Below are positions 22,393 through 64,000 of a stretch of 64,000 nucleotides of DNA, in pieces. This stretch comes from a virus. Within the stretch, counting starts at the first letter, position 1; every line of letters begins with the position of its first letter. Location: IMG/VR virus record IMGVR_UViG_3300025876_000005, positions 112,490 to 176,489 of that record; one strand, 5' to 3'. The notes under the pieces were generated by a model. That model was given only the letters and a program-made list of their open reading frames with translations, made no database searches and was not told the DNA's origin. The translations under genes were made by a program, and so were the position numbers.

Positions 22393-23010
22393 ATGTCAAA
22401 AACATCCGATTTAAGCTACAGAGAATTAGCAGAGAACTTTTATGCTTCACGCAGTGAAAAAGACTACAATGTACTTTACAAGAAGGTAAAGCCAGGACTT
22501 AAGTCTTATATCTTTAACATCATTAAAGACTCAGAAGCAACTGGCGATGTCTTAGCTAATACTCTGACTAAGCTTTGGACTAAGATAGATCAGTACAAAC
22601 CAGAGTATCAAGTAACTACATGGCTTTACAAGATAGCATTCAACGAATGTCTAAGTCATATTCGTAAGCGTAATCGTAAGTACAGTCTAGATGCAATGCG
22701 AGATTATGGGATCGAAGTAACTGAAGGCAACCATACAACAAACATGGCCGACAATTTACTCTTAGACTCAGAAGAGCGCATGACTGAAGCAGACTTCTAC
22801 GAAGAAGATGAGTATTTACAAAATCGTTACGAAAGTGCAATTGAGTGTATTAACAGCCTTAAGCCAATGTACCGTGAGATTATGCAAGATCGTCTATTTC
22901 ACAATATGAAGTACGAAGACATTGCAGAGAAATACAACGTATCTCTACAGACTGTAAAGAATAGAGTACGTCGCGGAAAAGTTCTAATCCAAAGAGCGAT
23001 GGGCGAATAA
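22393..23010 (+). CDS. ECF-like sigma-70 family RNA polymerase sigma factor
   Basis: 205 residues. Region 2 is visible at about 30-95 (ATGDVLANTLTKLWTKIDQY, TTWLYKIAFNECLSHIRKRNRK) and region 4 at about 152-203 (LKPMYREIMQDRLFHNMKYE, DIAEKYNVSLQTVKNRVRRG helix-turn-helix). It lacks regions 1 and 3, as in ECF factors; the linker is acidic. It should direct host RNA polymerase to phage promoters and is the best candidate in the window to read the GATATATAAA or TTGAAAC boxes. It is preceded by an early-type promoter, consistent with making it before late genes. Confidence 0.9.
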   Translation: MSKTSDLSYRELAENFYASRSEKDYNVLYKKVKPGLKSYIFNIIKDSEATGDVLANTLTKLWTKIDQYKPEYQVTTWLYKIAFNECLSHIRKRNRKYSLDAMRDYGIEVTEGNHTTNMADNLLLDSEERMTEADFYEEDEYLQNRYESAIECINSLKPMYREIMQDRLFHNMKYEDIAEKYNVSLQTVKNRVRRGKVLIQRAMGE

Positions 23011-23202: not shown

Positions 23203-23242
23203 GTTTTTAGTGTCAAACTTATTTGTTATATTTGCACTGTAA
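23203..23242 (+). promoter_or_regulatory. Early-type promoter of the tRNA/tmRNA operon
   Basis: GTTTTTAGTGTCAAAC, then TTATATTTGCACTGTAA. This copy has an exact Bacteroidota -7 element TATATTTG. It lies 23 bases before tRNA-Glu. Confidence 0.8.
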
Positions 23243-23249
23243 CAAAAAC

Positions 23250-23262
23250 GTTCTTTTACATA
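23250..23262 (+). promoter_or_regulatory. boxA-like antitermination element 1
   Basis: GTTCTTTTACATA, one mismatch from GTTCTTTGACATA used in Bacteroidota rRNA leaders (E. coli boxA GCTCTTTAACA). It lies between the promoter and tRNA-Glu. Confidence 0.6.
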
Positions 23263-23342: not shown

Positions 23343-23416
23343 TCCTCCATAGCTCAGTTGGTTAGAGCGGCTGACTGTTAATCAGTAGGTCCCTGGTTCG
23401 AGTCCAGGTGGGGGAG
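23343..23416 (+). tRNA. tRNA-Asn(GTT)
   Basis: Acceptor TCCTCCA/TGGGGGA, anticodon loop CTGTTAA, T-loop TTCGAGT. CCA not encoded. Confidence 0.95.
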
Positions 23417-23485
23417 CAAGTTGATTGTCAATGACGCTTATTGGCAGACTGTTGGACGCGGGTTCGAATCCCGCCACCTCCACAA

Positions 23486-23498
23486 GTTCTTTTACATA
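23486..23498 (+). promoter_or_regulatory. boxA-like element 2, inside the tmRNA spacer
   Basis: GTTCTTTTACATA, identical to element 1, in the intervening segment that should be removed when the two tmRNA pieces mature. Confidence 0.5.
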
Positions 23499-23567
23499 TT
23501 ACCAAAATATGGGGGTGACCGGCTTTTGACAATGGTTGATAGCGATAGGAAGAGACGATTGGCGTAC

Positions 23568-23597
23568 GCAAACGACAACTTTGCATTAGCGGCATAA
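23568..23597 (+). other. tmRNA tag reading frame (ANDNFALAA)
   Basis: GCA resume codon to TAA, nine tag residues. The first three (AND) and last four (ALAA) match the E. coli tag ANDENYALAA. Confidence 0.88.
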
Positions 23598-23666
23598 GTG
23601 CTGCTGATCTATTAAAGTCAAGGACTTGATAGATCACGTCAGCCTAGAACGAAATCTAGGCACTTT

Positions 23667-23752
23667 GGTCGAGTGGTGGAATAGGTAGACACGTCAGACT
23701 TAAAATCTGATGGGCAGTAATGCTCGTGCGGGTTCGATTCCCGCCTCGACTA
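23667..23752 (+). tRNA. tRNA-Leu(TAA)
   Basis: Class II tRNA; acceptor GGTCGAG/CTCGACT, anticodon arm TCAGA-CTTAAAA-TCTGA, variable arm, T-loop TTCGATT. Starts six bases after the last tmRNA hairpin. Confidence 0.94.
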
Positions 23753-23800
23753 CAAAGAAACAAACAGACTCTTTATTCATATAAAGACTGTTAAATGAAT

Positions 23801-24521: not shown

Positions 24522-24591
24522 CGTCTGACAGGCAAGGTGCCGCACAGGTCTCCAAAACCTCGTGGGTAGGGTTCGATTCCTTACAGGCGTG
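24521..24591 (+). tRNA. tRNA-Trp(CCA)
   Basis: Acceptor ACGTCTG/CAGGCGT, anticodon arm AGGT-CTCCAAA-ACCT, T-loop TTCGATT. Confidence 0.92.
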
Positions 24592-24620
24592 CAAAAAACT
24601 TTGAAAAAAGTTGCAAGAAA

Positions 24621-24660
24621 GTTTTTCAGTGTCAAATATTCTTATTATATTTGCACTGCA
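24621..24660 (+). promoter_or_regulatory. Early-type promoter inside the tRNA cluster
   Basis: GTTTTTCAGTGTCAAAT then TTATATTTGCACTGCAAT, with exact TATATTTG. A boxA follows 13 bases later, as in an rRNA leader. Confidence 0.8.
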
Positions 24661-24672
24661 ATAAACAAAATG

Positions 24673-24685
24673 GTTCTTTGACATA
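24673..24685 (+). promoter_or_regulatory. boxA element 4
   Basis: GTTCTTTGACATA followed by TTGGTAAAATTAAGAAA. The downstream part is shared with element 5, so the conserved unit is about 30 bases. Confidence 0.7.
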
Positions 24686-24913: not shown

Positions 24914-24991
24914 TTGCGATGGTGGTACAGAGACAGTCTCATGAGCTGTATTGGGTAGCTCCCCTCCGAGGTTCGATTCCTCAATCGCAAC
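24914..24991 (+). tRNA. tRNA-Met(CAT)
   Basis: Acceptor TTGCGAT/ATCGCAA, anticodon arm ACAGT-CTCATGA-GCTGT, slightly long variable loop. Confidence 0.88.
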
Positions 24992-41174: not shown

Positions 41175-43184
41175 ATGTCATTAGCAGACGGTTACGAAAG
41201 TGAAAAAGGTAGAAAGGGGTCGAAGAAGAAAGCGACTCCTTTTCTAGATGAGTTTGGTGAAGATCTAACACAACTTGCCGCTGAAGGTAAGCTAGATCCA
41301 ATTATTGGTAGAGATAAAGAGATCTACCGCATTTGCCAGATCTTGTCCAGAAGAAAGAAGAACAACCCAATTATTCTTGGAGACCCAGGTGTGGGTAAAA
41401 CTGCAATTGTAGAAGCGATTGCTCAACGTATTGTTGAGAAGAAAGTAGCGAGAGTGCTCTTAAACAAGAGAGTTATCTCAATCAACATGACAACGATCGT
41501 TGCAGGTACAAAATACCGTGGTGAATTTGAAGAGCGCATGAAGAATATTGTTGACGAGCTAAAGATGGCCGACAACGTAATCGTCTTCATTGATGAGATT
41601 CATACTATTGTTGGTGCTGGAGGTGTTAGTGGAGCGCTAGATGCTTCAAACATCCTAAAGCCAGCGTTGGCCAGAGGCCAAGTACAATGTATTGGTGCTA
41701 CTACACTTGATGAATACCGCGAGAATATCGAGGATGATGGCGCATTAACACGTCGTTTTCAAGAGGTGTTTATTGACCCACCTTCAATTGAAGAGACTAT
41801 TGAGATCTTACACAGAATCAAGTCTAATTATGAAGAGCACCATGCAGTTGAATATAATGATGAGTCAATCGAAGCCTGTGTGCGCATGAGTGAACGTTAC
41901 ATTAAGCAGCGTGAATTGCCGGATAAAGCAATTGACTTACTTGATGAATCTGGCGCTAGAACGCACTTAATGGAAGTTAAAGTACCGGCTAATATCAAAA
42001 AGCTTGAGAACAAATGCGAAACTATTAAACTCGATAAGAAACTTGCAGTTGAAAAACAAGACTATGAACTTGCAGCTCAGTTGAGAGATGCTCAGATGGA
42101 ATGTGAGTCTGAAGTTTTAGAAGAGACTGAAAAGTGGGAAGCAAGCCTAAAAACAACAAAACGTAAAGTTACAATCGACGATATTACAGAGACGATTGCA
42201 ATCCAGACAGGTATTCCAGTGAATAAGCTTGGCGCTGACGACATGAAGATGATTAAGAACATGGCTAATAAGCTTAAAGAGCATATCATCGGTCAGGATA
42301 AAGCAGTTGAGGCACTTGCACAAGTTATTAAAAGATCACGTACAGGCGTGGCAAGTCACAAGAAGCCTGTGGGTTCATTTATGTTCTTAGGTCCAACTGG
42401 AGTTGGTAAAACTGAGACTGTAAAAGCACTTGCAGAATACTTGTTTGGTGACACCGATGCAATGATCCGTATCGACATGTCAGAATACCAAGAGAAGTTT
42501 AATGTCTCAAGATTGATTGGTTCACCTCCGGGATATATTGGCCATGAAGACGGTGGTCAGCTAACAGAAGCAGTACGCCGCAAGCCATATTCAGTAGTTC
42601 TCTTTGATGAGATTGAGAAGGCGCACCCAGATACATTTAATACGTTACTACAAGTGCTTGATGAGGGCCGTCTCACGGACTCTCTAGGCCGCGAGATTGA
42701 CTTTACCAATACTATTATTGTCATGACTTCAAACGTCGGCGCGCGCAAGCTAGCGGACTTTGGAACTGGCGTTGGCTTCCAGAGCGCTTCTACAATTGCA
42801 ACTGAGAATGCTAAGATGGATGCAATCATTAAGAAGGAACTCAAGAATAAGTTTAGCCCAGAATTCTTAAACAGACTAGACGATATTATTCTATTCGATC
42901 AGCTTTCAAGTGATGACATTATTAAAATCGTTGACATTGAGCTTGATCTATTCAACGAGCGTATGACAGAGTTAGACTATGTATTTAAGTTTACTAAGGC
43001 TGCAAAAGAGTTTTTAGCAGTTGAAGGTTATGACCCAGCATACGGTGCTAGACCACTTAAGAGAGCAATTCAAAAATATGTAGAAGACTTAATTGCAGAT
43101 GCGATAGTTGACGGTGATCTTAAACCAGGTAAGACTTACACTGTTAATAAGATCAAGACAGACGAGAAACTAAAGCTTAAATAA
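41175..43184 (+). CDS. ClpA/ClpC-like AAA+ unfoldase
   Basis: 669 residues with two AAA domains: Walker A GDPGVGKT (about 70-77) and B VFIDEIH (about 137) in D1; Walker A GPTGVGKT (about 406) and B LFDEIEK (about 475) in D2. A short ClpC-type middle segment (EKQDYELAAQLRDAQMECES, UVR-like) lies between. The usual N-terminal repeat domain is missing; the first 30 residues are a charged linker. These unfoldases thread substrates into ClpP. A ClpP gene is three genes downstream, so the two probably form one protease. Missing N-domain suggests altered adaptor use. Confidence 0.93.
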   Translation: MSLADGYESEKGRKGSKKKATPFLDEFGEDLTQLAAEGKLDPIIGRDKEIYRICQILSRRKKNNPIILGDPGVGKTAIVEAIAQRIVEKKVARVLLNKRVISINMTTIVAGTKYRGEFEERMKNIVDELKMADNVIVFIDEIHTIVGAGGVSGALDASNILKPALARGQVQCIGATTLDEYRENIEDDGALTRRFQEVFIDPPSIEETIEILHRIKSNYEEHHAVEYNDESIEACVRMSERYIKQRELPDKAIDLLDESGARTHLMEVKVPANIKKLENKCETIKLDKKLAVEKQDYELAAQLRDAQMECESEVLEETEKWEASLKTTKRKVTIDDITETIAIQTGIPVNKLGADDMKMIKNMANKLKEHIIGQDKAVEALAQVIKRSRTGVASHKKPVGSFMFLGPTGVGKTETVKALAEYLFGDTDAMIRIDMSEYQEKFNVSRLIGSPPGYIGHEDGGQLTEAVRRKPYSVVLFDEIEKAHPDTFNTLLQVLDEGRLTDSLGREIDFTNTIIVMTSNVGARKLADFGTGVGFQSASTIATENAKMDAIIKKELKNKFSPEFLNRLDDIILFDQLSSDDIIKIVDIELDLFNERMTELDYVFKFTKAAKEFLAVEGYDPAYGARPLKRAIQKYVEDLIADAIVDGDLKPGKTYTVNKIKTDEKLKLK

Positions 43185-44060: not shown

Positions 44061-44372
44061 ATGGCAGAACCGTTAAGAATACACATTGACCCTAGAGCTT
44101 TAACAGTAACTGATTTCGATCAGCTGTTAATGAGCAAATACGATATGTTCTACCGCAGAATAGTAGAATATGTACTTAAAGATATTGAGGAGGGTTCTAA
44201 GGATGAAATTATGGCCATCTTAGTAGATGAAGATGGCGTTGAGTATGATATGAGTCTACCAAGAGAAGGCTACCTAAAATCATTAAACAAAGCAACTGAA
44301 TACTTTAGAATGATTGAAGAGTATGAAACATGTGGCCTAATCAAAGATATGATAAAACAAATTGAGAAATGA
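44061..44372 (+). CDS. Hypothetical protein between the TS-family and ClpP genes
   Basis: 103 residues, acidic, alpha/beta (RIHIDPRALTVTDFDQLLMS). Its stop overlaps the ClpP ATG by four bases (translational coupling), so it may be linked to the Clp system, but no adaptor family is recognised. Confidence 0.7.
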   Translation: MAEPLRIHIDPRALTVTDFDQLLMSKYDMFYRRIVEYVLKDIEEGSKDEIMAILVDEDGVEYDMSLPREGYLKSLNKATEYFRMIEEYETCGLIKDMIKQIEK

Positions 44373-45049
44373 ATTACTATAGTAAAGATAAAGAATTTGA
44401 GAGATTCGCAAAGAGCGAATTTAACATCGGCTCATCAAAGCTAGATGTATATAGCAAACACATCCAAGGCTCAATGACGCCATATATTCTAGAAGAACGA
44501 GAGTTGAGAGCAACTCAAATGGACATCTTCTCAAGATTGATGATGGACAGATTGCTATGGGTTGCAGGTCCTGTAAATGACCAAATGTCAACTGTTGTCC
44601 AAGCTCAATTAATGTTTTTAGACACTACATCAAACGAAGATATTACAATGCATATTGATTCTCCAGGTGGAAGTGTTAAATCAGGACTTTCAATGGTTGA
44701 CGTGATGGAATACATTAAAGCTGACATCCGCACAATTAATACAGGTATGGCAGCTTCGATGGGTTCAGTACTTCTTGGCGCTGGTACAAAAGGTAAAAGA
44801 ATGTCATTAAGACACTCAACGACAATGTTACACCAGTCATCAGGTGGATTCAGTGGAAACATTCAAGATGCTGAAATCGACTGGCAAGAATGGAAAAAAG
44901 TTAACAATGAGCTTTTTGTCCTACTTGGATCTTACTGTGGTAAAAGTGCAGAACAAGTTAAAGAAGATGCTACGCGTGACTTCTGGTTAAATGCAGAAGA
45001 AGCTGTTAAATACGGTATCATCGACGAAGTAATTAAGCCGAATAAATAA
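44369..45049 (+). CDS. clpP: ClpP-like serine protease
   Basis: 226 residues. Triad Ser130 (GMAASMG), His155 (MLHQSS) and Asp204 (TRDFWLNAEEA) have the same spacing (25 and 49) as E. coli ClpP Ser98, His123, Asp172. The substrate-strand MHIDSPGGSV and the handle helix are present. The N-terminal extension (about 45 residues before the fold) is unusual and may be a processed propeptide or a docking element. It should assemble into a 14-mer and degrade proteins fed by the ClpA/C-like unfoldase, possibly tmRNA-tagged ones. Confidence 0.93.
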   Translation: MNYYSKDKEFERFAKSEFNIGSSKLDVYSKHIQGSMTPYILEERELRATQMDIFSRLMMDRLLWVAGPVNDQMSTVVQAQLMFLDTTSNEDITMHIDSPGGSVKSGLSMVDVMEYIKADIRTINTGMAASMGSVLLGAGTKGKRMSLRHSTTMLHQSSGGFSGNIQDAEIDWQEWKKVNNELFVLLGSYCGKSAEQVKEDATRDFWLNAEEAVKYGIIDEVIKPNK

Positions 45050-46167: not shown

Positions 46168-48987
46168 ATGCCAACAGTAAAAAGAGATAATCTTATCATA
46201 ACACAGGCCAGCTTTACAGAAGTGTTAAGAGGCCAAGAAGCATTTTTTACTTTTAACTTGTACCAAGATATACAGGGTAAAGATGTTAATACTAGTCTAT
46301 TAGATGACTATGTGTTTACGCTTAAAGATTTAGACAACCAAACAGTAAAGACTTTTTCCAAGTCATTAGGTAACGTAACGCTCGGTAATCCGATTACAAG
46401 TAGCTTTAGAATACACCTTTCTGGCGAAGAGACCCTAGAATTAAAATCAGGTAGCCTCTTCTTAACAGTGTATATTCGCATGGGCATAAAGCGTCTTACT
46501 TTTGCACCGTTTAAAACTGGTGTAATCTACGCTTATGGAGACCAGTTAAAGAGTGGTGAGATCTTAACTAGATTTACACACCCAACTACAATTTACAGAG
46601 TACATGGTTTTGACTACAGTGGTGCAAATCCAAAACTGGGTGAAGTTGTGTTAAACTCAGCACTTACACGCTCTACAACTAAAGCGCTTTTTAACAAGAC
46701 CGATTCTTTAGGTAAGATTAACGCTTATCTTGAGACAATGTTGCTTAAGAGATTCGATGAAGATGGGGCTAAACTTAATCTGATTTTAACTAACGCAAAC
46801 GACACAACACAGTATGCAATCTATAAAGTTACAGGTTGGGCAAGAGTTGACCTTAATACAGACGGCTCAAGCTCAGGCTCTTTAGACGGCATTGAAGTAG
46901 ATCTAGAATACGAAGGCGGCTCATCAATCGAAGGTGAGTCTTTCTCATTTATAGTTAACGATGAGATTGGTCTTTGGATTGAATCTTTTAGTGACAATGC
47001 AAACACAATTGAAGTTAACTACACAGGAACATCTTACGGTGACGTTGGCAGAATTGTATTTAGAGGTGGTTTCGACGTAAGACCTAATGTTAACGGTGGA
47101 GTTGACGTTTGGGTACCGGACATTCCAGAACTAGATGAGATTAGAGTTATTCACGGTGAAGACGGTACGGACGGTACGGACGGTACAAGTGGAACTTCAG
47201 GTACTTCTGGTACAAGTGGTACATCTGGTTCTTCAGGAACATCTGGAACCGATGGAACTTCAGGCACTTCTGGTACAAGTGGCACTTCTGGTACAAGTGG
47301 CACATCTGGCACAAGCGGTGTAGATGGCACTTCAATTACTATTTTAGGAACACTTGAATCTGAAGATCAATTACCAGTTGATGAAAACTCTAACGGTGAC
47401 GGTTATATTATAGCAGGCGATCTATGGACATGGAATCGTCCTCAATGGAATAATGTTGGTCAAATCCAAGGCCCTGCTGGTTCTTCAGGTTCATCAGGCA
47501 CATCTGGTTCTTCAGGTACTTCTGGCACAAGCGGCACAGACGGAACTTCAGGCACAGACGGAACTTCAGGCACAGACGGAACTTCAGGCACAGACGGAAC
47601 TTCAGGCACCTCAGGCACTTCTGGTTCATCAGGCACATCTGGTTCATCAGGTACAAGTGGTTCTTCAGGTGTAAACGGTGTAGACGGTACTTATTTAGGT
47701 ACGGATGGAACAAGCGGTTCTTCAGGTATATCAGGTACATCAGGTACATCTGGCAGTAGCGGAATAGACGGTGCACAGGCTACGGCTATAACACCAACGA
47801 TTAAAAACTTAGAATTCTTTTCATGGTCTTCCGGCTCAGCTTATGTTTCGGGAACTCCAAGTCTCCCCGGTGAAAGTTTAACTATAGAAATCCATGTAAG
47901 TGTATCTGATTACAATATTATTAGATTAGTTGCAGACGTTGAAGGTGATCTAGCTTATGCAATACAAAGATCTATTAATTCAACAAATCCTACTATAATT
48001 TATGAAGGTCAAACATATACTAACGATGTAATTAATCTTGAGTTTGTTGACTCACACGGTGCTATTGGGGGAGATATAGTTACTTATGAGATATTAGGCT
48101 ATGGTATTGGTGCGTCCAACCCACGCCTCGGAAGACTTTCGGATCTACAGCTTGTTGCATATGAATTTATGCATGCGTTAGCGGCAGGTCATTCATCAGG
48201 AACTAGTGGTTCTTCAGGAACTAGTGGCTCTTCGGGAACTAGTGGCTCTTCGGGAACAAGTGGTTCAAGTGGTGTTAATGGAACTATCGGTCCTGTTGGC
48301 AAAGACGGAACATCCGGTTCTTCAGGTACTTCTGGAAGTTCAGGAGTAAACGGCCAGGGCGTACCGACAGGTGGTACAGCCGGTCAAGCACTTGTTAAAA
48401 TTGACGGCACAAACTACAATACACAATGGTCTGATGTAGCTGCAAGCGGTGGTACAACACAAAGATTAACAGACTACTCAGAAATACACTACAATGCAAA
48501 AATTCAGAGCGGACCAGCTAATGGTTATAACACACTGCAATCCGCGCCCGGAGGTACATTTATAGATTTAAAATCTAGTTTAATGCCAATAGATGCATCC
48601 TCGGTTAACCTGTTACAGCCTATAACTACAGGTGGGCTTTATTATGCACTTAATAATATTAATGGGGAGAATATATCAAGCTGGCACAGAGTAGAATACA
48701 ATATTAATTTGACAGGGTCTGAAAGTACTGAAGTTATTACAGTCTCTGTTTTTGACGCGGCGGTAAGTGGTAGCATCTATCAAGATGAATTTACTTTACC
48801 GGCTGCTAGAACCTATGTATTTAGTGCAGAGTTTGTTGCTCAATTAAATAATACGAGCGCTCTAATACTCCAGCTATCATCTGCTACAACCAATTCATCT
48901 GTAATTATTAATCAATTTAATTTTAGAGCAGCACAGTACCAAGAAGGTACAGTACATGGCAATGATAACTGGCAGGGCTACGTATAA
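46168..48987 (+). CDS. Collagen-like tail fibre protein 1
   Basis: 939 residues. N-terminal beta domain (1-330) shared with the next gene, both containing a 'KR(F)...D.GA.LNL..TN.N.T..YAI.KV..W.RV' segment. Collagen-like tracts of GTS/GSS/GTD triplets at about 332-386, 437-534 and 676-729 are separated by small globular islands. [20 protein letters not shown] (about 730) is a frequent phage-fibre linker and precedes a C-terminal domain. Gly every third residue implies a triple helix; Pro is nearly absent, with Thr and Ser replacing it, as in other phage collagens. Probably a host-binding fibre. Confidence 0.85.
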
Positions 48988-49009
48988 GACCTTAACCTAA
49001 GATACGTTT

Positions 49010-49019
49010 GATATATAGA
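49010..49019 (+). promoter_or_regulatory. Late-promoter-like box GATATATAGA
   Basis: 28 bases before the second fibre ATG. Confidence 0.45.
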
Positions 49020-49046
49020 TAGAGACTAAAAAATAAACAATAAAAC

Positions 49047-52000
49047 ATGCCATCAGTAAATAGTAATGATTTTATTCTACAGATACCTGAGTTAGTAAAG
49101 GTTAACCGCGGCGTACAAGCCCTGGTTACTACAACATTACACCAGAATTATCTAGGTAATCTAGTAGATATTGTCAACTTAAATGACGTTACGATAAAAG
49201 TAGTTAACCACGCAGGAACGACGGTTAAAATACTTAAAAAATCAGATTCAACTTTAACGTACGGAACCGGATCTACAAAAGGTAGATTTATTATCAATCT
49301 AAGCTCAACTGAGACTTTAGGCTTACCAGAAGGCGATGTCTATCTAGACGTTGTCATCAATTCAGGTGTTAAAGTAGTTACAATGCCAAGACTAAAAGTT
49401 GGTTTCACAATCGACGGTGGCCAGGCATTACCAGACGGATCAGTTGGAGGTAGATTTACAATCCCAGCTCCGATCTATGAAGTTATATCTTTAAACTACG
49501 GTAACGATTTACCAGCAGCAGGACAAGTTGTCTTAAGCTCTTCTAATCCAAATGGTTTAACGAAGATTGTCTTAAACAACACTGATGATCTAGGTAAGAG
49601 AAATGTATATGTAGAAACATTACTACAGAAAAGATTTACTGATGATGGCGCAGAGTTAAACCTCTTTGTTACTAATGTTAACAACACAAGTGAATATGCA
49701 ATCTTTAAGGTTGTTTCATGGCAGAGAGTTGAAATTCTAGACTCAGGTGCTAGCAATAACTCTGAAATGGTGGATGGTATTGAGATTACCGTTTCACCAG
49801 AAGGTGCTTCTAGAACTGAGACTCAAGTTACTAAATTTGAAGTTGGTGATACTCTAGGTTTCTTCTTAGAGTCTTTTGCAAACAACAGCATTACAGTAGT
49901 AAATGGCTCAACAGACTACGAAGGTACAAAGAGTATTGAATTTGTTGGCGGCATGACCGTTAGTGATAACGGCAACGGCAATATTGCAGTTAACATCCCT
50001 TATTTTGACAACGTAACCGGTACTATCAACGGTGTAGATGGTCAAGATGGAACAAGTGGTTCTTCGGGTGTTAATGGTGCTGATGGAACTTCAGGAAGCA
50101 GCGGTGTTAGTGGTACAGACGGAACAAGTGGTTCTTCAGGAACAAGCGGTTCATCTGGTGTTAATGGTGCTGATGGAACAGGTGGTTCATCTGGTGTTAA
50201 CGGTGCTGACGGAGCAGATGGTCAAGACGGAACAAGCGGTTCATCTGGTGTTAACGGAGCTGATGGCGCAGATGGTGCTGACGGCCAAGATGGAACATCA
50301 GGAAGCAGTGGTATAAACGGAGCCAATGGTGTTGATGGAACAAGCGGTTCATCAGGTGTTAACGGCGCAGACGGAAACGACGGTATTGATGGTACTTCAG
50401 GTTCTTCCGGTATAAACGGTGTAAATGGTATCGATGGAACAAGTGGTTCATCAGGTGTTAATGGTTTAGACGGAACAAGTGGTTCATCAGGTGTTAACGG
50501 AGTTAACGGAGTTAACGGTGTTGATGGAACTTCAGGAAGTAGTGGTGTTAATGGTGCTGACGGCCAAGATGGTGCTGACGGCCAAGATGGAACAAGCGGA
50601 AGTAGTGGTATTAATGGTGCTGACGGCCAAGATGGTGCTGACGGCCAAGATGGAACAAGCGGAAGTAGTGGTATAAACGGAGTTGCTGGTGCAACTGGAC
50701 CTGCTGGAACTTCAGGAAGCAGTGGTGTTAATGGTGCTGACGGCCAAGATGGTGCTGCCGGCCAAGATGGAACAAGCGGAAGTAGTGGTATTAATGGTGC
50801 TGATGGTGTTAACGGTCAAGATGGGACAAGCGGCTCATCTGGTATAAACGGAGTTGCTGGTGCAACTGGACCTGCTGGAGCTGATGGAACTTCAGGAAGC
50901 AGTGGTGTTAATGGTGCTGACGGCCAAGATGGTGCTGCCGGCGAAGACGGAACAAGCGGTTCATCTGGTATAAACGGAGCCAATGGTGTTGACGGAACAT
51001 CTGGTTCATCAGGTATTAACGGAGTTGATGGCACAAGCGGTTCATCTGGTATCAGCGGAACTTCAGGTTCGAGTGGTGTTAGTGGCGCAGACGGAAATGA
51101 CGGTACAGATGGTACTTCAGGTAGTAGCGGTGTTAACGGTCAAGATGGGACAAGCGGCTCATCCGGTATAAACGGAGTTGCTGGTGAAACTGGACCTGCG
51201 GGTGCGGATGGTACATCAGGAAGTAGCGGTGTTAATGGTGCTGACGGCCAAGATGGTGCAGATGGCCAAGATGGAACAAGCGGTTCATCCGGTATTAACG
51301 GAGCTAATGGTGTTGACGGTCAAGACGGAACATCAGGTTCAAGTGGTATCAGTGGTGTTGATGGAAACGATGGTACGGACGGTACTTCAGGTTCAAGTGG
51401 TATCAGTGGTGTTGATGGAAACGATGGTACGGACGGTACTTCAGGTTCAAGTGGTGTTAATGGTGCAGACGGAAATGACGGTACGGACGGTACTTCAGGT
51501 TCTTCAGGTATCAATGGTGCTGACGGAAACGATGGTACGGACGGGACTTCAGGTTCTTCAGGTATCAATGGTGCTGATGGAAATAATGGTACTGATGGAA
51601 CAAGCGGTTCATCTGGTGTTGATGGTGTATCAAATGTACCAGGTCCTGCAGGTACTGATGGAACAAGTGGTTCTTCAGGTGTTAACGGAGCTGATGGAGC
51701 CGATGGTACAAGTGGTTCTTCAGGTGTTAACGGAGCTGATGGAGCCGATGGTACAAGTGGTTCTTCAGGTGTTAACGGTGCTGATGGAAACGATGGTACA
51801 GACGGTACTTCAGGTTCAAGCGGTGTTAATGGTGCTGACGGAAACGACGGTACAGACGGAACAAGTGGTTCTTCAGGTATTAATGGTGCTGACGGAAACG
51901 ATGGTACAGACGGAACAAGTGGTTCTTCAGGTGTTAATGGTGCTGACGGAAATAATGGTACAGACGGAACAAGTGGTTCTTCAGGTATTAATGGTGCAGA

Positions 52001-52658
52001 TGGAAATGACGGTACGGATGGTACAAGTGGTTCAAGCGGTGTTAACGGTGCTGACGGAAATGACGGTACGGATGGTACAAGTGGTTCTTCAGGTATCTCT
52101 GGTGAAGGCGTACCAACAGGTGGTACCGAAGGTCAAGCTCTTGTTAAAGCATCTGCTACAAACTACGATACAGAATGGGCTGATGCTGCAAGTGGAGTAA
52201 CAAACTATCTACTAAGACTTGAATATGATACTTCAAATCACCTTGTAAATAGTACAACAGATAATAGATTTATAGCAGCAACTGGATTTGAAACTTCAGG
52301 TGCAAGCGTGGACAGCGTAAGCGTAGATACTGGAAACACAATCTATACAATTACAGTATCGTTCAGCAACGAATCTAATCCACCACAAAACATATTAGTT
52401 TATGCATGGGATCCTGTAAACTACGACTATCAAGTACATCCATATAGAGTTGACTCTTCGGATCTAACAATTGATACAGACAACGGTGACTTTACATCAT
52501 CTAACAACCAGTTCACACCAAATATTTTTGGTAGCTTTGGTTCAACAAGTTTGACGATCGACGTAAGACAGGATTACATCAAGTACGTGAACGCAATTGG
52601 CTTAGGTGGTAATAGAAGATTCGCACACGCATATTTAATAATATCATTCAACGGATAA
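49047..52658 (+). CDS. Collagen-like tail fibre protein 2
   Basis: 1,203 residues. The N-terminal domain (1-325) is a paralogue of fibre 1. An uninterrupted Gly-x-y tract of about 690 residues follows (about 328-1,021), built from [13 protein letters not shown] and [16 protein letters not shown] units, then GEGVPTGGTEGQALVKASAT and a C-terminal beta domain of about 150 residues. The tract is richer in Asn/Asp than fibre 1. Nearly identical DNA repeats make length variation by recombination likely. Confidence 0.87.
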   Translation: MPSVNSNDFILQIPELVKVNRGVQALVTTTLHQNYLGNLVDIVNLNDVTIKVVNHAGTTVKILKKSDSTLTYGTGSTKGRFIINLSSTETLGLPEGDVYLDVVINSGVKVVTMPRLKVGFTIDGGQALPDGSVGGRFTIPAPIYEVISLNYGNDLPAAGQVVLSSSNPNGLTKIVLNNTDDLGKRNVYVETLLQKRFTDDGAELNLFVTNVNNTSEYAIFKVVSWQRVEILDSGASNNSEMVDGIEITVSPEGASRTETQVTKFEVGDTLGFFLESFANNSITVVNGSTDYEGTKSIEFVGGMTVSDNGNGNIAVNIPYFDNVTGTINGVDGQDGTSGSSGVNGADGTSGSSGVSGTDGTSGSSGTSGSSGVNGADGTGGSSGVNGADGADGQDGTSGSSGVNGADGADGADGQDGTSGSSGINGANGVDGTSGSSGVNGADGNDGIDGTSGSSGINGVNGIDGTSGSSGVNGLDGTSGSSGVNGVNGVNGVDGTSGSSGVNGADGQDGADGQDGTSGSSGINGADGQDGADGQDGTSGSSGINGVAGATGPAGTSGSSGVNGADGQDGAAGQDGTSGSSGINGADGVNGQDGTSGSSGINGVAGATGPAGADGTSGSSGVNGADGQDGAAGEDGTSGSSGINGANGVDGTSGSSGINGVDGTSGSSGISGTSGSSGVSGADGNDGTDGTSGSSGVNGQDGTSGSSGINGVAGETGPAGADGTSGSSGVNGADGQDGADGQDGTSGSSGINGANGVDGQDGTSGSSGISGVDGNDGTDGTSGSSGISGVDGNDGTDGTSGSSGVNGADGNDGTDGTSGSSGINGADGNDGTDGTSGSSGINGADGNNGTDGTSGSSGVDGVSNVPGPAGTDGTSGSSGVNGADGADGTSGSSGVNGADGADGTSGSSGVNGADGNDGTDGTSGSSGVNGADGNDGTDGTSGSSGINGADGNDGTDGTSGSSGVNGADGNNGTDGTSGSSGINGADGNDGTDGTSGSSGVNGADGNDGTDGTSGSSGISGEGVPTGGTEGQALVKASATNYDTEWADAASGVTNYLLRLEYDTSNHLVNSTTDNRFIAATGFETSGASVDSVSVDTGNTIYTITVSFSNESNPPQNILVYAWDPVNYDYQVHPYRVDSSDLTIDTDNGDFTSSNNQFTPNIFGSFGSTSLTIDVRQDYIKYVNAIGLGGNRRFAHAYLIISFNG
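50032..52110 (+). repeat. Collagen-like repeat tract of fibre 2
   Basis: Mixed triplet repeats (GADG, GQDG, GVNG, GTSGSSG) covering about 690 residues with local long identical blocks, for example around 50560-50680 and 51340-51560. Confidence 0.9.
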
Positions 52659-59589: not shown

Positions 59590-62500
59590 ATGTCAAAGAT
59601 TAGAATTAAACAGATTAGTGAATTCGGTGTCACATCACCAAACCAGGGTGATTATTTAGCCTATAATTCAACATCAGGTCAATTTGAAAACCAACCAGCG
59701 CCATTAGATGGAACAAGTGGTTCCAGTGGTACAAGTGGTATCGGAGGTAACTCATTCTTCTATAACTACACAACAACAAGTCCTGCCATACTAACACAAG
59801 GTGAAGCGACAACAAACAGTAACTCAAACTGGGCTTCGGCAACAGTAATTTACTATCACAAGACAGACAATAACAGTACACAATTAGGCTCATTCTGGAG
59901 CGGTTTAGGAGCAGGCAGTGTACTTAAGATATATGCTAATGCGGCGACATACGTTTACGAAATAAATTCTACACCGACTCTAACTGCACCAACTAGCGAT
60001 GTATATGCAGTTAGTGTTACGCATCAGACCGGTAGTAGTGTACCAACATTGCCAGATGAATTACTTACAGAGGTAACATCAATAGGACAAGCAGGTACGA
60101 GCGGTTCATCCGGAACTAGTGGTTCTTCAGGAACAGACGGTACTGATGGAACTTCAGGCTCAAGCGGAACAGACGGTACAGACGGAACTTCAGGCTCAAG
60201 CGGAACAGACGGTACAGACGGAACTTCAGGCTCAAGCGGAACAGACGGTACGGATGGAACAAGTGGTTCTTCAGGAACAGATGGTACGGATGGAACAAGT
60301 GGTTCTTCAGGAACAGACGGTACAGACGGAACTTCAGGTTCTTCAGGAACAGACGGTACAGACGGAACTTCAGGTTCTTCGGGAACAGATGGAACAGACG
60401 GAACTTCAGGTTCAAGTGGAACAGATGGTACAGACGGAACTTCAGGTTCTTCGGGAACAGATGGAACAGACGGAACTTCAGGTTCTTCGGGAACAGATGG
60501 AACAGACGGAACTTCAGGCTCAAGCGGAACAGACGGTACAGACGGAACTTCAGGTTCTTCAGGAACAGACGGTACAGACGGAACTTCAGGTTCTTCGGGA
60601 ACAGACGGAACAGATGGAACAAGCGGTTCTTCAGGAACAGACGGTACGGATGGAACAAGTGGTTCTTCAGGAACAGACGGTACAGATGGAACAAGCGGTT
60701 CTTCAGGAACAGACGGTACAGACGGAACTTCAGGCTCAAGCGGAACGGACGGAACAGACGGAACTTCAGGTTCTTCGGGAACAGATGGAACAGACGGAAC
60801 AGACGGAACAAGCGGTTCTTCAGGAACAGACGGTACTGATGGAACTTCAGGTTCTTCAGGAACAGACGGTACTGATGGAACTTCAGGTTCTTCAGGAACA
60901 GACGGTACAGACGGAACTTCAGGTTCTTCAGGAACAGACGGAACAGACGGAACTTCAGGCTCTTCAGGAACAGATGGAACAGACGGAACTTCAGGCTCTT
61001 CGGGAACAGATGGAACAGACGGAACAAGCGGTTCTTCAGGAACAGACGGTACTGATGGAACAAGTGGTTCTTCAGGAACAGACGGAACAGACGGAACTTC
61101 TGGCAGCTCAGGAACAGACGGAACAGACGGAACTTCTGGCAGCTCAGGAACAGACGGTACAGATGGAACAAGCGGTTCTTCAGGAACAGACGGTACAGAT
61201 GGAACAAGCGGTTCTTCAGGAACAGACGGTACAGATGGAACAAGCGGTTCTTCAGGAACAGACGGTACAGACGGAACTTCAGGCTCAAGCGGAACGGACG
61301 GAACAGACGGAACTTCAGGCTCAAGCGGAACGGATGGAACAGACGGAACTTCAGGTTCTTCGGGAACAGACGGAACAGATGGAACAAGCGGTTCTTCAGG
61401 AACAGACGGTACTGATGGAACTTCAGGTTCTTCAGGAACAGACGGTACAGACGGAACTTCAGGTTCTTCGGGAACAGACGGTACAGACGGAACTTCAGGC
61501 TCAAGCGGAACAGACGGTACAGACGGAACTTCTGGCAGCTCAGGAACAGACGGTACAGACGGAACAAGCGGTTCTTCAGGAACAGATGGTACAGACGGAA
61601 CTTCTGGCAGCTCAGGAACAGACGGTACAGACGGAACTTCAGGCTCAAGCGGAACGGACGGAACAGACGGAACTTCAGGCTCTTCAGGAACAGACGGTAC
61701 AGACGGAACTTCAGGTTCTTCAGGAACAGATGGTACGGACGGTACAGATGGAACAAGCGGTTCTTCAGGAACAGACGGTACAGATGGTACTTCAGGAAGC
61801 TCAGGTACTTCAGGAACTTCAGGTACTTCAGGCAGCTCAGGTACAAGCGGTTCATCTGGTAATGATGGTAATACTGCTGTATGGGAGCTTTCATCTACAC
61901 AAGGTGCAATTCCAGCTAGCGGGCTTTTCTCAGTTAATAATTTATCTGATTTGAGCTTAGTAACCAATATTAAAATAAATGAAACAGATAAAAATCCAGG
62001 AATTAATAGAGAAGGTTACTTTGAAAAACTAGGTAATGGATCTATAATTACTATATCTTATAATACAAACTCATTCTTCTACGAAATAACAGGTTCGACT
62101 AATAACGCAGGTTATTTTGAGTTTACTGTAACCTTTTTAAGTGGAATTAGTACTTCAGGTTCAACTGGATCTGATTACTATGTTAAGTTCGACAGTGTAG
62201 GCGTATCAGGAACAAGTGGTTCATCAGGAACTTCAGGCTCAAGCGGAACGGACGGTACAGATGGAACAAGCGGTTCTTCAGGAACAGACGGTACAGACGG
62301 AACTTCTGGCAGCTCAGGAACAGACGGTACTGATGGAACTTCTGGCAGCTCAGGAACAGACGGTACAGATGGAACAAGCGGTTCTTCAGGAACAGACGGT
62401 ACAGACGGAACTTCTGGCAGCTCAGGAACAGACGGTACAGACGGAACTTCTGGCAGCTCAGGAACAGACGGTACAGATGGAACAAGCGGTTCTTCAGGAA

Positions 62501-64000
62501 CAGACGGTACGGATGGAACAAGCGGTTCTTCAGGAACAGACGGTACAGACGGAACTTCTGGCAGCTCAGGAACAGACGGTACTGATGGAACTTCAGGCTC
62601 AAGCGGAACAGACGGTACTGATGGAACAAGCGGTTCTTCAGGAACAGACGGCACAGACGGAACTTCAGGTTCTTCAGGAACAGACGGAACAGACGGAACT
62701 TCAGGCTCTTCAGGTACAGACGGAACTTCTGGCAGCTCAGGAACAGACGGTACAGATGGAACAAGCGGTTCTTCAGGAACAGATGGAACAGACGGAACTT
62801 CAGGCTCTTCAGGAACAGACGGTACTGATGGAACAAGCGGTTCTTCAGGAACAGACGGTACAGACGGAACTTCTGGCAGCTCAGGAACAGATGGAACTTC
62901 TGGCAGCTCAGGAACAGACGGTACTGATGGAACTTCAGGCTCTTCAGGAACAGACGGAACTTCAGGCTCAAGCGGAACAGACGGTACAGATGGAACAAGC
63001 GGTTCTTCAGGAACAGACGGTACTGATGGAACTTCAGGTTCAAGTGGTACAGATGGTACAGATGGAACTTCAGGTTCAAGTGGAACAGACGGTACTGATG
63101 GAACTTCAGGTTCTTCAGGAACAGACGGTACAGACGGAACTTCAGGTTCTTCAGGAACAGACGGTACTGATGGAACAAGTGGTTCTTCAGGAACAGACGG
63201 TACAGATGGAACTTCTGGCTCAAGCGGAACAGACGGTACTGATGGAACTTCTGGCAGCTCAGGAACAGACGGTACAGATGGAACTTCTGGCTCAAGCGGA
63301 ACAGATGGCACAGACGGAACAAGCGGTTCAAGTGGAACAGATGGAACAGACGGAACTTCAGGCTCAAGCGGAATAGACGGTACAGACGGAACTTCTGGCA
63401 GCTCAGGAACAGACGGTACTGATGGAACTTCTGGCAGCTCAGGAACAGACGGTACAGATGGAACTTCAGGCTCAAGCGGAACGGACGGTACAGATGGAAC
63501 AAGCGGTTCTTCAGGAACAGACGGTACTGATGGAACTTCTGGCAGCTCAGGAACAGACGGTACTGATGGAACAAGCGGTTCTTCAGGAACAGACGGTACT
63601 GATGGAACTTCGGGAACAGACGGTACAGATGGAACAAGTGGTTCTTCAGGAACAGACGGTACAGATGGAACAAGTGGTTCTTCGGGAACAGATGGAACAG
63701 ACGGAACTTCTGGCAGCTCAGGAACAGACGGTACTGATGGAACTTCAGGCTCTTCAGGAACAGACGGTACAGACGGAACTTCAGGCTCAAGCGGAACAGA
63801 TGGAACAGATGGAACTTCAGGTTCAAGTGGAACAGACGGTACAGACGGAACTTCAGGTTCTTCAGGAACAGACGGAACAGACGGAACTTCTGGCAGCTCA
63901 GGAACAGACGGTACTGATGGAACTTCAGGCTCTTCAGGAACAGACGGTACAGACGGAACTTCAGGCTCAAGCGGAACAGATGGAACAGATGGAACTTCAG
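59590..64000 (+). CDS. Giant collagen-like fibre protein 3 (3' truncated by window)
   Basis: Frame 1 is open from ATG 59590 (MSKIRIKQISEFGVTSPNQG) to the window end, at least 1,470 codons without a stop. A short N-terminal domain (1-165) includes one early collagen-like patch. Tract 1 (about 168-757) and tract 2 (about 873 to end) are almost pure [12 protein letters not shown] (12-residue period). A globular island (about 758-872, WELSSTQGAIPASGLFSVNN) separates them. Pro is rare, as in fibres 1 and 2. Triplet-level synonymous variation (GGA/GGT, TCA/AGC) breaks exact DNA identity. Confidence 0.9.
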   Translation, partial: MSKIRIKQISEFGVTSPNQGDYLAYNSTSGQFENQPAPLDGTSGSSGTSGIGGNSFFYNYTTTSPAILTQGEATTNSNSNWASATVIYYHKTDNNSTQLGSFWSGLGAGSVLKIYANAATYVYEINSTPTLTAPTSDVYAVSVTHQTGSSVPTLPDELLTEVTSIGQAGTSGSSGTSGSSGTDGTDGTSGSSGTDGTDGTSGSSGTDGTDGTSGSSGTDGTDGTSGSSGTDGTDGTSGSSGTDGTDGTSGSSGTDGTDGTSGSSGTDGTDGTSGSSGTDGTDGTSGSSGTDGTDGTSGSSGTDGTDGTSGSSGTDGTDGTSGSSGTDGTDGTSGSSGTDGTDGTSGSSGTDGTDGTSGSSGTDGTDGTSGSSGTDGTDGTSGSSGTDGTDGTSGSSGTDGTDGTDGTSGSSGTDGTDGTSGSSGTDGTDGTSGSSGTDGTDGTSGSSGTDGTDGTSGSSGTDGTDGTSGSSGTDGTDGTSGSSGTDGTDGTSGSSGTDGTDGTSGSSGTDGTDGTSGSSGTDGTDGTSGSSGTDGTDGTSGSSGTDGTDGTSGSSGTDGTDGTSGSSGTDGTDGTSGSSGTDGTDGTSGSSGTDGTDGTSGSSGTDGTDGTSGSSGTDGTDGTSGSSGTDGTDGTSGSSGTDGTDGTSGSSGTDGTDGTSGSSGTDGTDGTSGSSGTDGTDGTSGSSGTDGTDGTSGSSGTDGTDGTSGSSGTDGTDGTDGTSGSSGTDGTDGTSGSSGTSGTSGTSGSSGTSGSSGNDGNTAVWELSSTQGAIPASGLFSVNNLSDLSLVTNIKINETDKNPGINREGYFEKLGNGSIITISYNTNSFFYEITGSTNNAGYFEFTVTFLSGISTSGSTGSDYYVKFDSVGVSGTSGSSGTSGSSGTDGTDGTSGSSGTDGTDGTSGSSGTDGTDGTSGSSGTDGTDGTSGSSGTDGTDGTSGSSGTDGTDGTSGSSGTDGTDGTSGSSGTDGTDGTSGSSGTDGTDGTSGSSGTDGTDGTSGSSGTDGTDGTSGSSGTDGTDGTSGSSGTDGTDGTSGSSGTDGTSGSSGTDGTDGTSGSSGTDGTDGTSGSSGTDGTDGTSGSSGTDGTDGTSGSSGTDGTSGSSGTDGTDGTSGSSGTDGTSGSSGTDGTDGTSGSSGTDGTDGTSGSSGTDGTDGTSGSSGTDGTDGTSGSSGTDGTDGTSGSSGTDGTDGTSGSSGTDGTDGTSGSSGTDGTDGTSGSSGTDGTDGTSGSSGTDGTDGTSGSSGTDGTDGTSGSSGIDGTDGTSGSSGTDGTDGTSGSSGTDGTDGTSGSSGTDGTDGTSGSSGTDGTDGTSGSSGTDGTDGTSGSSGTDGTDGTSGTDGTDGTSGSSGTDGTDGTSGSSGTDGTDGTSGSSGTDGTDGTSGSSGTDGTDGTSGSSGTDGTDGTSGSSGTDGTDGTSGSSGTDGTDGTSGSSGTDGTDGTSGSSGTDGTDGTSGSSGTDGTDGTS
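60091..61860 (+). repeat. Collagen-like tandem repeat tract 1 (36-bp period)
   Basis: About 49 copies of a 36-base unit encoding [12 protein letters not shown]. Synonymous changes make the units imperfect DNA repeats. Confidence 0.93.
62206..64000 (+). repeat. Collagen-like tandem repeat tract 2 (36-bp period)
   Basis: Same unit as tract 1, continuing past the window end; a few 24-base shortened units (for example near 62713 and 62887) show unit loss. Confidence 0.93.

Follow-up and report, generated by a model that had tools for sequence, protein, structure and literature searches.

Circularly permuted genes for transfer-messenger RNA (tmRNA; gene ssrA) are not new in phages: 53 two-piece structures, mostly aquatic, have been published (PMC9004378). 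The coding piece of two-piece tmRNAs typically keeps the pseudoknots PK1 and PK2, and plastid tmRNAs may be without pseudoknots (PMC3985003). It has long been debated how a tmRNA, which has no start signal, places the first codon of its tag. In E. coli, 11 nucleotides (nts) separate PK1 from the resume codon, and A86, at position −4 to that codon, is the main determinant of the frame (PMC2481249). The E. coli data implicate A86 together with some five bases upstream; their reader may be SmpB (PMC2481249, PMC4236655), which touches at least five nucleotides upstream of the resume codon (PMC4236655). Both PK1 and the A at −4 are conserved in most tmRNAs (PMC4236655, PMC2481249). Here we analyzed the final 64 kb (the window) of the 176,489-bp IMG/VR virus record IMGVR_UViG_3300025876_000005. 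For all practical purposes it is certain that positions 23420 to 23661 of the window are a circularly permuted tmRNA gene inside a phage tRNA cluster. What seems to be new is its architecture: PK1 is gone, the end of helix H2 is fixed 4 nts before the resume codon, and the A at −4 is not kept.

The Rfam model for permuted tmRNA (RF04321, tmRNA_permuted; cut-off [GA], 47 bits), whose definition covers the tRNA-like domain only and leaves PK1 outside it (PMC11915505), matched positions 23423 to 23597 over its full length, with a score of 67.6 bits and an E value of 7.5e-11 for the 64-kb window. This was the sole RF04321 match across the 176-kb record, despite the 25 tRNAs that ARAGORN called in the window. 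The beta_tmRNA model (RF01850) gave 52.2 bits at the same locus, under its cut-off of 84, and the one-piece model (RF00023; cut-off, 47 bits) had no above-cut-off match in the window; a related contig with an identical tmRNA sequence reached just 39 bits against RF00023. The 3′ half of the tRNA-like domain (23458 to 23481) stands before the 5′ half (23511 to 23517), and there is a tag frame with a degradation-type end and with its stop codon inside the 7-bp helix H5. A plain tRNA or a one-piece tmRNA at the locus was excluded by the RF00005 and RF00023 results, and a chance match was excluded by the E value, by the lone RF04321 match beside 25 tRNAs, and by the covariation described below. An earlier reading of the letters of the window (the original prediction) had proposed a permuted tmRNA gene, and the covariance model, the covariation in relatives, and the conserved tag all bear this out. 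The T-arm and 3′ acceptor strand preceding the acceptor GGGGGTG, the D-like sequence, and the tag ANDNFALAA are all where that reading had placed them.

From pattern scans and phage relatives we assembled a clade consisting of the window copy and the IMG/VR sequences L206 to L208 and L262 to L269. The clade is single in a tree of tRNA-like domains (support, 95/89), and its mean column identity is 77%. ARAGORN labels one member, L263, "tmRNA*" (permuted), with a tag identical to that of the window copy. Covariation was tested with 8 distinct sequences and 63 proposed pairs, against 500 shuffles and slid-partner controls. The proposed structure was paired in 92.7% of cells, and 32 of the 63 pairs showed two-sided change; none of the 500 shuffles reached either value, and the slid-partner controls were 36 to 51% paired. 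The 7-bp acceptor was paired in 100% of cells, and G3-U70, the identity pair for alanyl-tRNA synthetase, was invariant in 8 of 8 sequences, as were the T-loop and the resume codon GCA among the relatives. The tags in the clade are ANDNFALAA, ANDEFALAA, ADGEFALAA, and ANDKFALAA; FALAA is constant while its codons vary. Because structure and tag are both conserved, we infer that this is a working gene family and not a relic, and tmRNA function in the phage is likely.

All parts of the gene are on the plus strand. The acceptor piece (23418 to 23482; predicted ends), recognized from the RF04321 match, the fold, and the relatives, carries the 3′ strand of H2, the T-arm, the 3′ acceptor strand, and the discriminator A at 23482. 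It is about 65 nts long, or about 68 nts with an added CCA, which the gene does not encode (the DNA has A-CA after the acceptor strand). Overall, the 3′ strand of H2 occupies 23420 to 23453 and the 5′ strand 23531 to 23563. The distal part pairs 23420 to 23429 with 23554 to 23563 (10 bp; 97.5% of cells paired; two-sided change in 5 pairs), the middle part pairs 23437 to 23443 with 23543 to 23549 (fold and relatives), and the proximal part pairs 23447 to 23453 with 23531 to 23537 (two-sided change in 5 of 7 pairs). The T-arm, GCGGG-TTCGAAT-CCCGC (23458 to 23474), is supported by sequence, fold, and relatives. It is followed by the 3′ acceptor strand CACCTCC (23475 to 23481), whose pairing with 23511 to 23517, including G3-U70, is seen in the relatives. 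Between the two acceptor strands lies a 28-nt intervening segment (23483 to 23510), predicted from its position to be removed on maturation.

The coding piece (23511 to 23661; predicted ends) begins with the 5′ acceptor GGGGGTG (23511 to 23517) and the adjoining D-like loop sequence ACCGGCTTTTGAC, and continues with the 5′ strand of H2, the tag, H5, and two 3′ hairpins. The 4-nt linker GTAC (23564 to 23567), which runs from the end of H2 to the resume codon, is 4 nts in all relatives in the clade; in the usual layout PK1 and about 11 nts occupy this place, and H2 lies far from the first codon of the tag. The tag frame ANDNFALAA-stop (23568 to 23597) reads GCA-AAC-GAC-AAC-TTT-GCA-TTA-GCG-GCA-TAA, and its FALAA is kept in relatives via synonymous changes. 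The stop codon falls in the H5 hairpin (23588 to 23605; 7 bp, 96% of cells paired), which is followed by hairpin A (GATCTATTAA-A-GTC / GACTTGATAGATC; 23606 to 23635; two-sided change in 10 of 13 pairs) and by hairpin B, with an invariant ACGAAA loop (23642 to 23661; two-sided change in 5 of 7 pairs). In the minimum-free-energy fold of the window copy, GGCGT ahead of the tag paired with ACGTC beyond hairpin A; this pairing was dropped because it is not kept in relatives. The gene is immediately flanked, also on the plus strand, by tRNA-Asn(GTT) (23343 to 23417) and tRNA-Leu(TAA) (23667 to 23753), both called by ARAGORN. As these tRNAs end at 23417 and start at 23667, ordinary processing of both would bound the tmRNA pieces; the 3′ end of the coding piece would fall between 23661 and 23667, for a length of about 155 nts. 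The original prediction had given the extent as 23421 to 23661. Its 3′ part stands, but the 5′ end has to be moved to 23418 to 23420, because H2 begins at G23420, immediately after tRNA-Asn.

What the original prediction overlooked was the loss of PK1 and the spacing that goes with it. PK1 is absent upstream of the tag, and a mere 4 nts separate H2 and the resume codon throughout the clade. In every relative H2 extends, with covariation, to exactly 4 nts short of GCA. Position −4 can be G, C, or A, position −2 is invariably A, and the tag starts 47 to 50 nts after the 5′ acceptor. None of the papers that we read describes a spacing of 4 nts from H2 to the resume codon. The resume codon may be placed with the help of the H2 end instead of an A at −4. 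A bolder proposal, that an H2-end ruler with the invariant A at −2 replaces the PK1/A86 signal and that the phage thereby has a tagging system of its own in which its ClpC and ClpP are the degrader, is tentative and, taken as a whole, doubtful. A natural tmRNA family that is under selection, has neither PK1 nor a kept A at −4, and always ends a helix 4 nts before the resume codon provides a direct test case for how the frame is set.

From the sequence evidence, we read the locus as a functional, circularly permuted ssrA of a large T4-related Bacteroidota phage that would act by trans-translation, and we put the probability of this at roughly 85%. Several observations weigh against it. ARAGORN did not call the window tmRNA, and a single-sequence fold of the window copy with extra upstream tRNA-Asn sequence favored another pairing. 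Neither the phage nor any of 39 phage records that are related or bear a tmRNA yielded an SmpB, so SmpB of the host would have to serve. Within the phage lineage the tmRNA is patchy (11 of 33 records, many of which are fragments), whereas ClpC and ClpP are near-universal; the tmRNA thus looks dispensable and its link to Clp nonspecific.

The missing signals could also mean that the RNA is a decoy or saboteur, which would be charged but, without PK1 and A86, would tag poorly, and which would dampen trans-translation in the host by occupying its SmpB or its stalled ribosomes. The features lost are those that most tmRNAs conserve (PMC4236655, PMC2481249), and there is a precedent in the tag-less tmRNA of phage DS6A, which inhibits the endogenous tmRNA (PMC11915505). 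However, a pure decoy has no need of a tag frame, a FALAA end, or an H5 with its stop codon, all of which are conserved here with synonymous or compensatory changes; moreover, PK1 of E. coli can be replaced by single-stranded RNA with tagging retained (PMC4236655). We therefore consider a decoy unlikely and prefer a tmRNA that tags.

Such a tmRNA would probably work as follows. Promoters of the flavobacterial rRNA type, with boxA-like boxes, would drive its cotranscription with about 25 tRNAs; the promoter sequences are observed, and their activity is presumed. tRNA-processing enzymes are predicted to cut the precursor at 23482/23483 and 23510/23511, while 3′ processing of tRNA-Asn would set where the acceptor piece starts and an RNase P cut at the 5′ end of tRNA-Leu would bound the coding piece. 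The products would be an acceptor piece of 23418 to 23482 (about 68 nts with CCA added) and a coding piece of 23511 to about 23666 (about 155 nts), held together by the acceptor helix and H2. Host alanyl-tRNA synthetase would charge the tmRNA via G3-U70, and host SmpB and EF-Tu would deliver it to ribosomes that have stalled on broken mRNA. There, translation would resume at the GCA at 23568, ANDNFALAA would be appended, and the tagged chain would be degraded by host Clp or Lon or by the phage ClpC and ClpP. The likely benefit is that ribosomes would be kept free while infection breaks mRNA.

The phage Clp genes are on the plus strand. One encodes a ClpC-type AAA+ unfoldase without an N-domain and with the ClpP-binding loop GVGF (41175 to 43184), whose link to the tag is putative; the other encodes a ClpP peptidase that has both its Ser motif (ASMGS) and its His motif (LHQ) (44369 to 45049; PF00574, 6e-59; PDB ClpP, 2.8e-47). 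A thymidylate synthase gene lies between them. Nearly all of the large relatives have kept both Clp genes, even where they gave no tmRNA match, and so we claim no specific link between the tmRNA and Clp; degradation of tagged chains through the phage Clp proteins is possible.

The host was very probably a member of the Bacteroidota. The nearest relatives of the terminase and tail sheath are in the uncultured phage LR756500, Sphingomonas phage PAU, Tenacibaculum phage PTm1, Flavobacterium phage MaF61, and the Prevotella Lak phages. Motifs like the Shine-Dalgarno (SD) sequence precede only 3 of 52 genes, which does not exceed the background of 8.6%, and Bacteroidota are without SD sequences (PMC6847099). 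In front of the tRNA/tmRNA array, on the plus strand, is a promoter of the Bacteroidota rRNA type (23227 to 23262), with the −7 box TATATTTG(CACTG) and then the boxA-like GTTCTTTTACATA (23250 to 23262). There are two such units, at 23227 and 24646, each with TTATATTTGCACTG followed by GTTCTTTTACATA or GTTCTTTGACATA; the near-identical promoter units (TTATATTTGCACTG plus GTTCTTTKACATA) span 23210 to 23262 and 24629 to 24685, ahead of tRNA arrays. TANNTTTGCA also precedes 43 of the 45 flavobacterial 16S loci, and many of these loci have boxes of the GTTCATTGACATA type within their rRNA operons. The tRNA array has 4 boxA-like boxes (0.0035 expected); apart from those of the two promoter units, copies are at 23486 (the GTTCTTTTACATA at 23486 to 23498, within the intervening segment of the tmRNA), 24509, and 26576. 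We liken these to boxA, an antitermination signal of rRNA operons. A strict count of TTTG-N-TANNTTTG promoters across the window showed no enrichment, and information comes only from the specific TATATTTGCACTG units that precede the tRNA arrays. Thus, three independent lines, phage kinship, the lack of SD sequences, and the flavobacterial rRNA-type promoter with its boxA-like boxes, agree with the Bacteroidota host assumed in the original prediction.

Sphingomonas phage PAU is one of the closest phages by terminase, and one might suppose from this that the host was not bacteroidotan but a bacterium with its own permuted ssrA (Sphingomonas or another alphaproteobacterium, for instance), whose gene the phage copied. 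The same promoter and boxes, the missing SD sequences, the other relatives (which infect Tenacibaculum, Flavobacterium, and Prevotella), and the one-piece, Gly-resume tmRNA of LR756500, the nearest relative in the named collection, make this very unlikely. Two further observations concern the array itself. A gene for a sigma-70-like factor with regions 2 and 4 (22393 to 23010) lies immediately upstream, and two tRNA-like sequences were not called by ARAGORN, one with a CCA (Trp) anticodon loop (24524 to 24596) and one with CAT (24917 to 24990); the array probably holds more than 25 tRNAs.

Here, the permuted form is a phage trait. Only 1 of 395 Bacteroidota genomes exceeded the RF04321 cut-off, and the same genome gave the sole match among 399 genomes of the Polaribacter irgensii family (the five best candidates were scored per genome, and weak copies may escape). 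The permuted gene of this Flavobacteriaceae genome (L446, G336:C1:976200-996100) has the tag GKVIQMNNAPVRLAA, and its neighbors are an integrase, RIIA/RIIB, a primase, and DNA polymerase A. Since these phage genes are on a 1.6-Mb contig with adjoining metabolic genes, the gene lies in a prophage; the genome also has its own one-piece tmRNA. The chromosomal tmRNAs of flavobacteria and of the sampled Bacteroidota are one-piece. The signature pattern of the clade was found in none of 84,980 GTDB genomes (an exact pattern, which diverged donors would escape), and no direct named homologue of the clade tmRNA was found in 50,697 phage records. The tree of tRNA-like domains did not resolve the origin of the permuted form. 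These results fit the earlier suggestion that the phage copy was not simply taken from its host, and phages may be a reservoir of tmRNA forms unused by their hosts. It could be argued from its patchy presence, its reduced structure, and a tag start, GCAAACGAC, that resembles the RF04321 permuted-tmRNA consensus that this is a recently captured alpha- or betaproteobacterial-type gene that is now decaying among the tRNAs as a passenger, but we think this very unlikely, as strong covariation and a conserved tag at 77% mean column identity indicate purifying selection and the signature is in none of the 84,980 genomes.

Some observations concern other parts of the phage genome. An array with a 36-bp period and about 108 copies (60121 to 64000) lies in a collagen-like coding region that runs past the end of the window and has long open reading frames on both strands; similar collagen-like tail genes are at 46168 to 52658. 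In a relative, the terminase large-subunit gene (G056:C1:160080-161910) seems to be in two pieces, one with TAG stops, perhaps because of an insertion or intron.

Compared with known systems, the gene has the permuted order, split tRNA-like domain, H2, Ala resume codon GCA, tag within the coding piece, and H5 stop codon of the alpha- and betaproteobacterial and cyanobacterial two-piece tmRNAs (RF04321, RF01849 to RF01851). The clade differs from them in the absence of PK1, the 4-nt linker, the A at −4 that is not kept, and the two simple 3′ hairpins, and the window copy scores under the beta-specific cut-off. Like the genes of the Methylophilales phage Melnitz and of SAR11 phages, it is a permuted ssrA in a phage that is argued not to come from the present host; those genes, in marine phages, are of the alphaproteobacterial type, are riboswitch controlled, and belong to another phage group and host phylum (PMC9004378). 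The one-piece tmRNAs of Bacteroidota and LR756500 share the tRNA-like domain and G3-U70, but have the standard order, a longer layout, and a mid-gene tag with the Gly resume codon GGC. Their tags include GNEEFALAA (L414) and GNNAEMRMAA, the latter from LR756500 (L280), a 462-kb uncultured phage with its tmRNA at LR756500.1:94509-94921 (95.5 bits).

Among the phages themselves, longer permuted tmRNAs in the same virus collection start the tag at least 65 nts after the 5′ acceptor. A second short group (L002, L011, L020, L030, L054, L057, L063, L069, and L100) is also permuted and without PK1, and its tags are Bacteroidota-like with a Gly resume codon (GEQVELAMAA, GESVYMAMAA, and the like); the linker in this group is about 11 nts and ends in AACT, and hence the A at −4 is kept. 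Two crAss-like phages (Crassvirales) from the human gut, cr10_1 (MT774382, L451) and cr60_1 (NC_055891, L450), also have the permuted layout and are labeled "tmRNA*" by ARAGORN; cr10_1 is above the RF04321 cut-off and cr60_1 below it. A 3′ CACGTG-hairpin-ACGAAAG element in cr10_1 is similar to that of the window copy, but both phages have a Gly resume codon, Bacteroidota-like tags (GNNFVTDYTQLAVA, GNTSYVMDYTRLAA), and the A at −4. Their genes are annotated merely as tmRNA ("SsrA"), with the permutation unremarked. Because permuted tmRNAs have been published from phages and are present in crAss-like records as plain tmRNA, the bare occurrence of one here is less surprising than the original prediction held. 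The permuted tmRNAs of Bacteroidota phages can now be seen as a group, made up of the window clade, the GEQVELAMAA-type group, the Flavobacteriaceae prophage, and the crAss-like phages.
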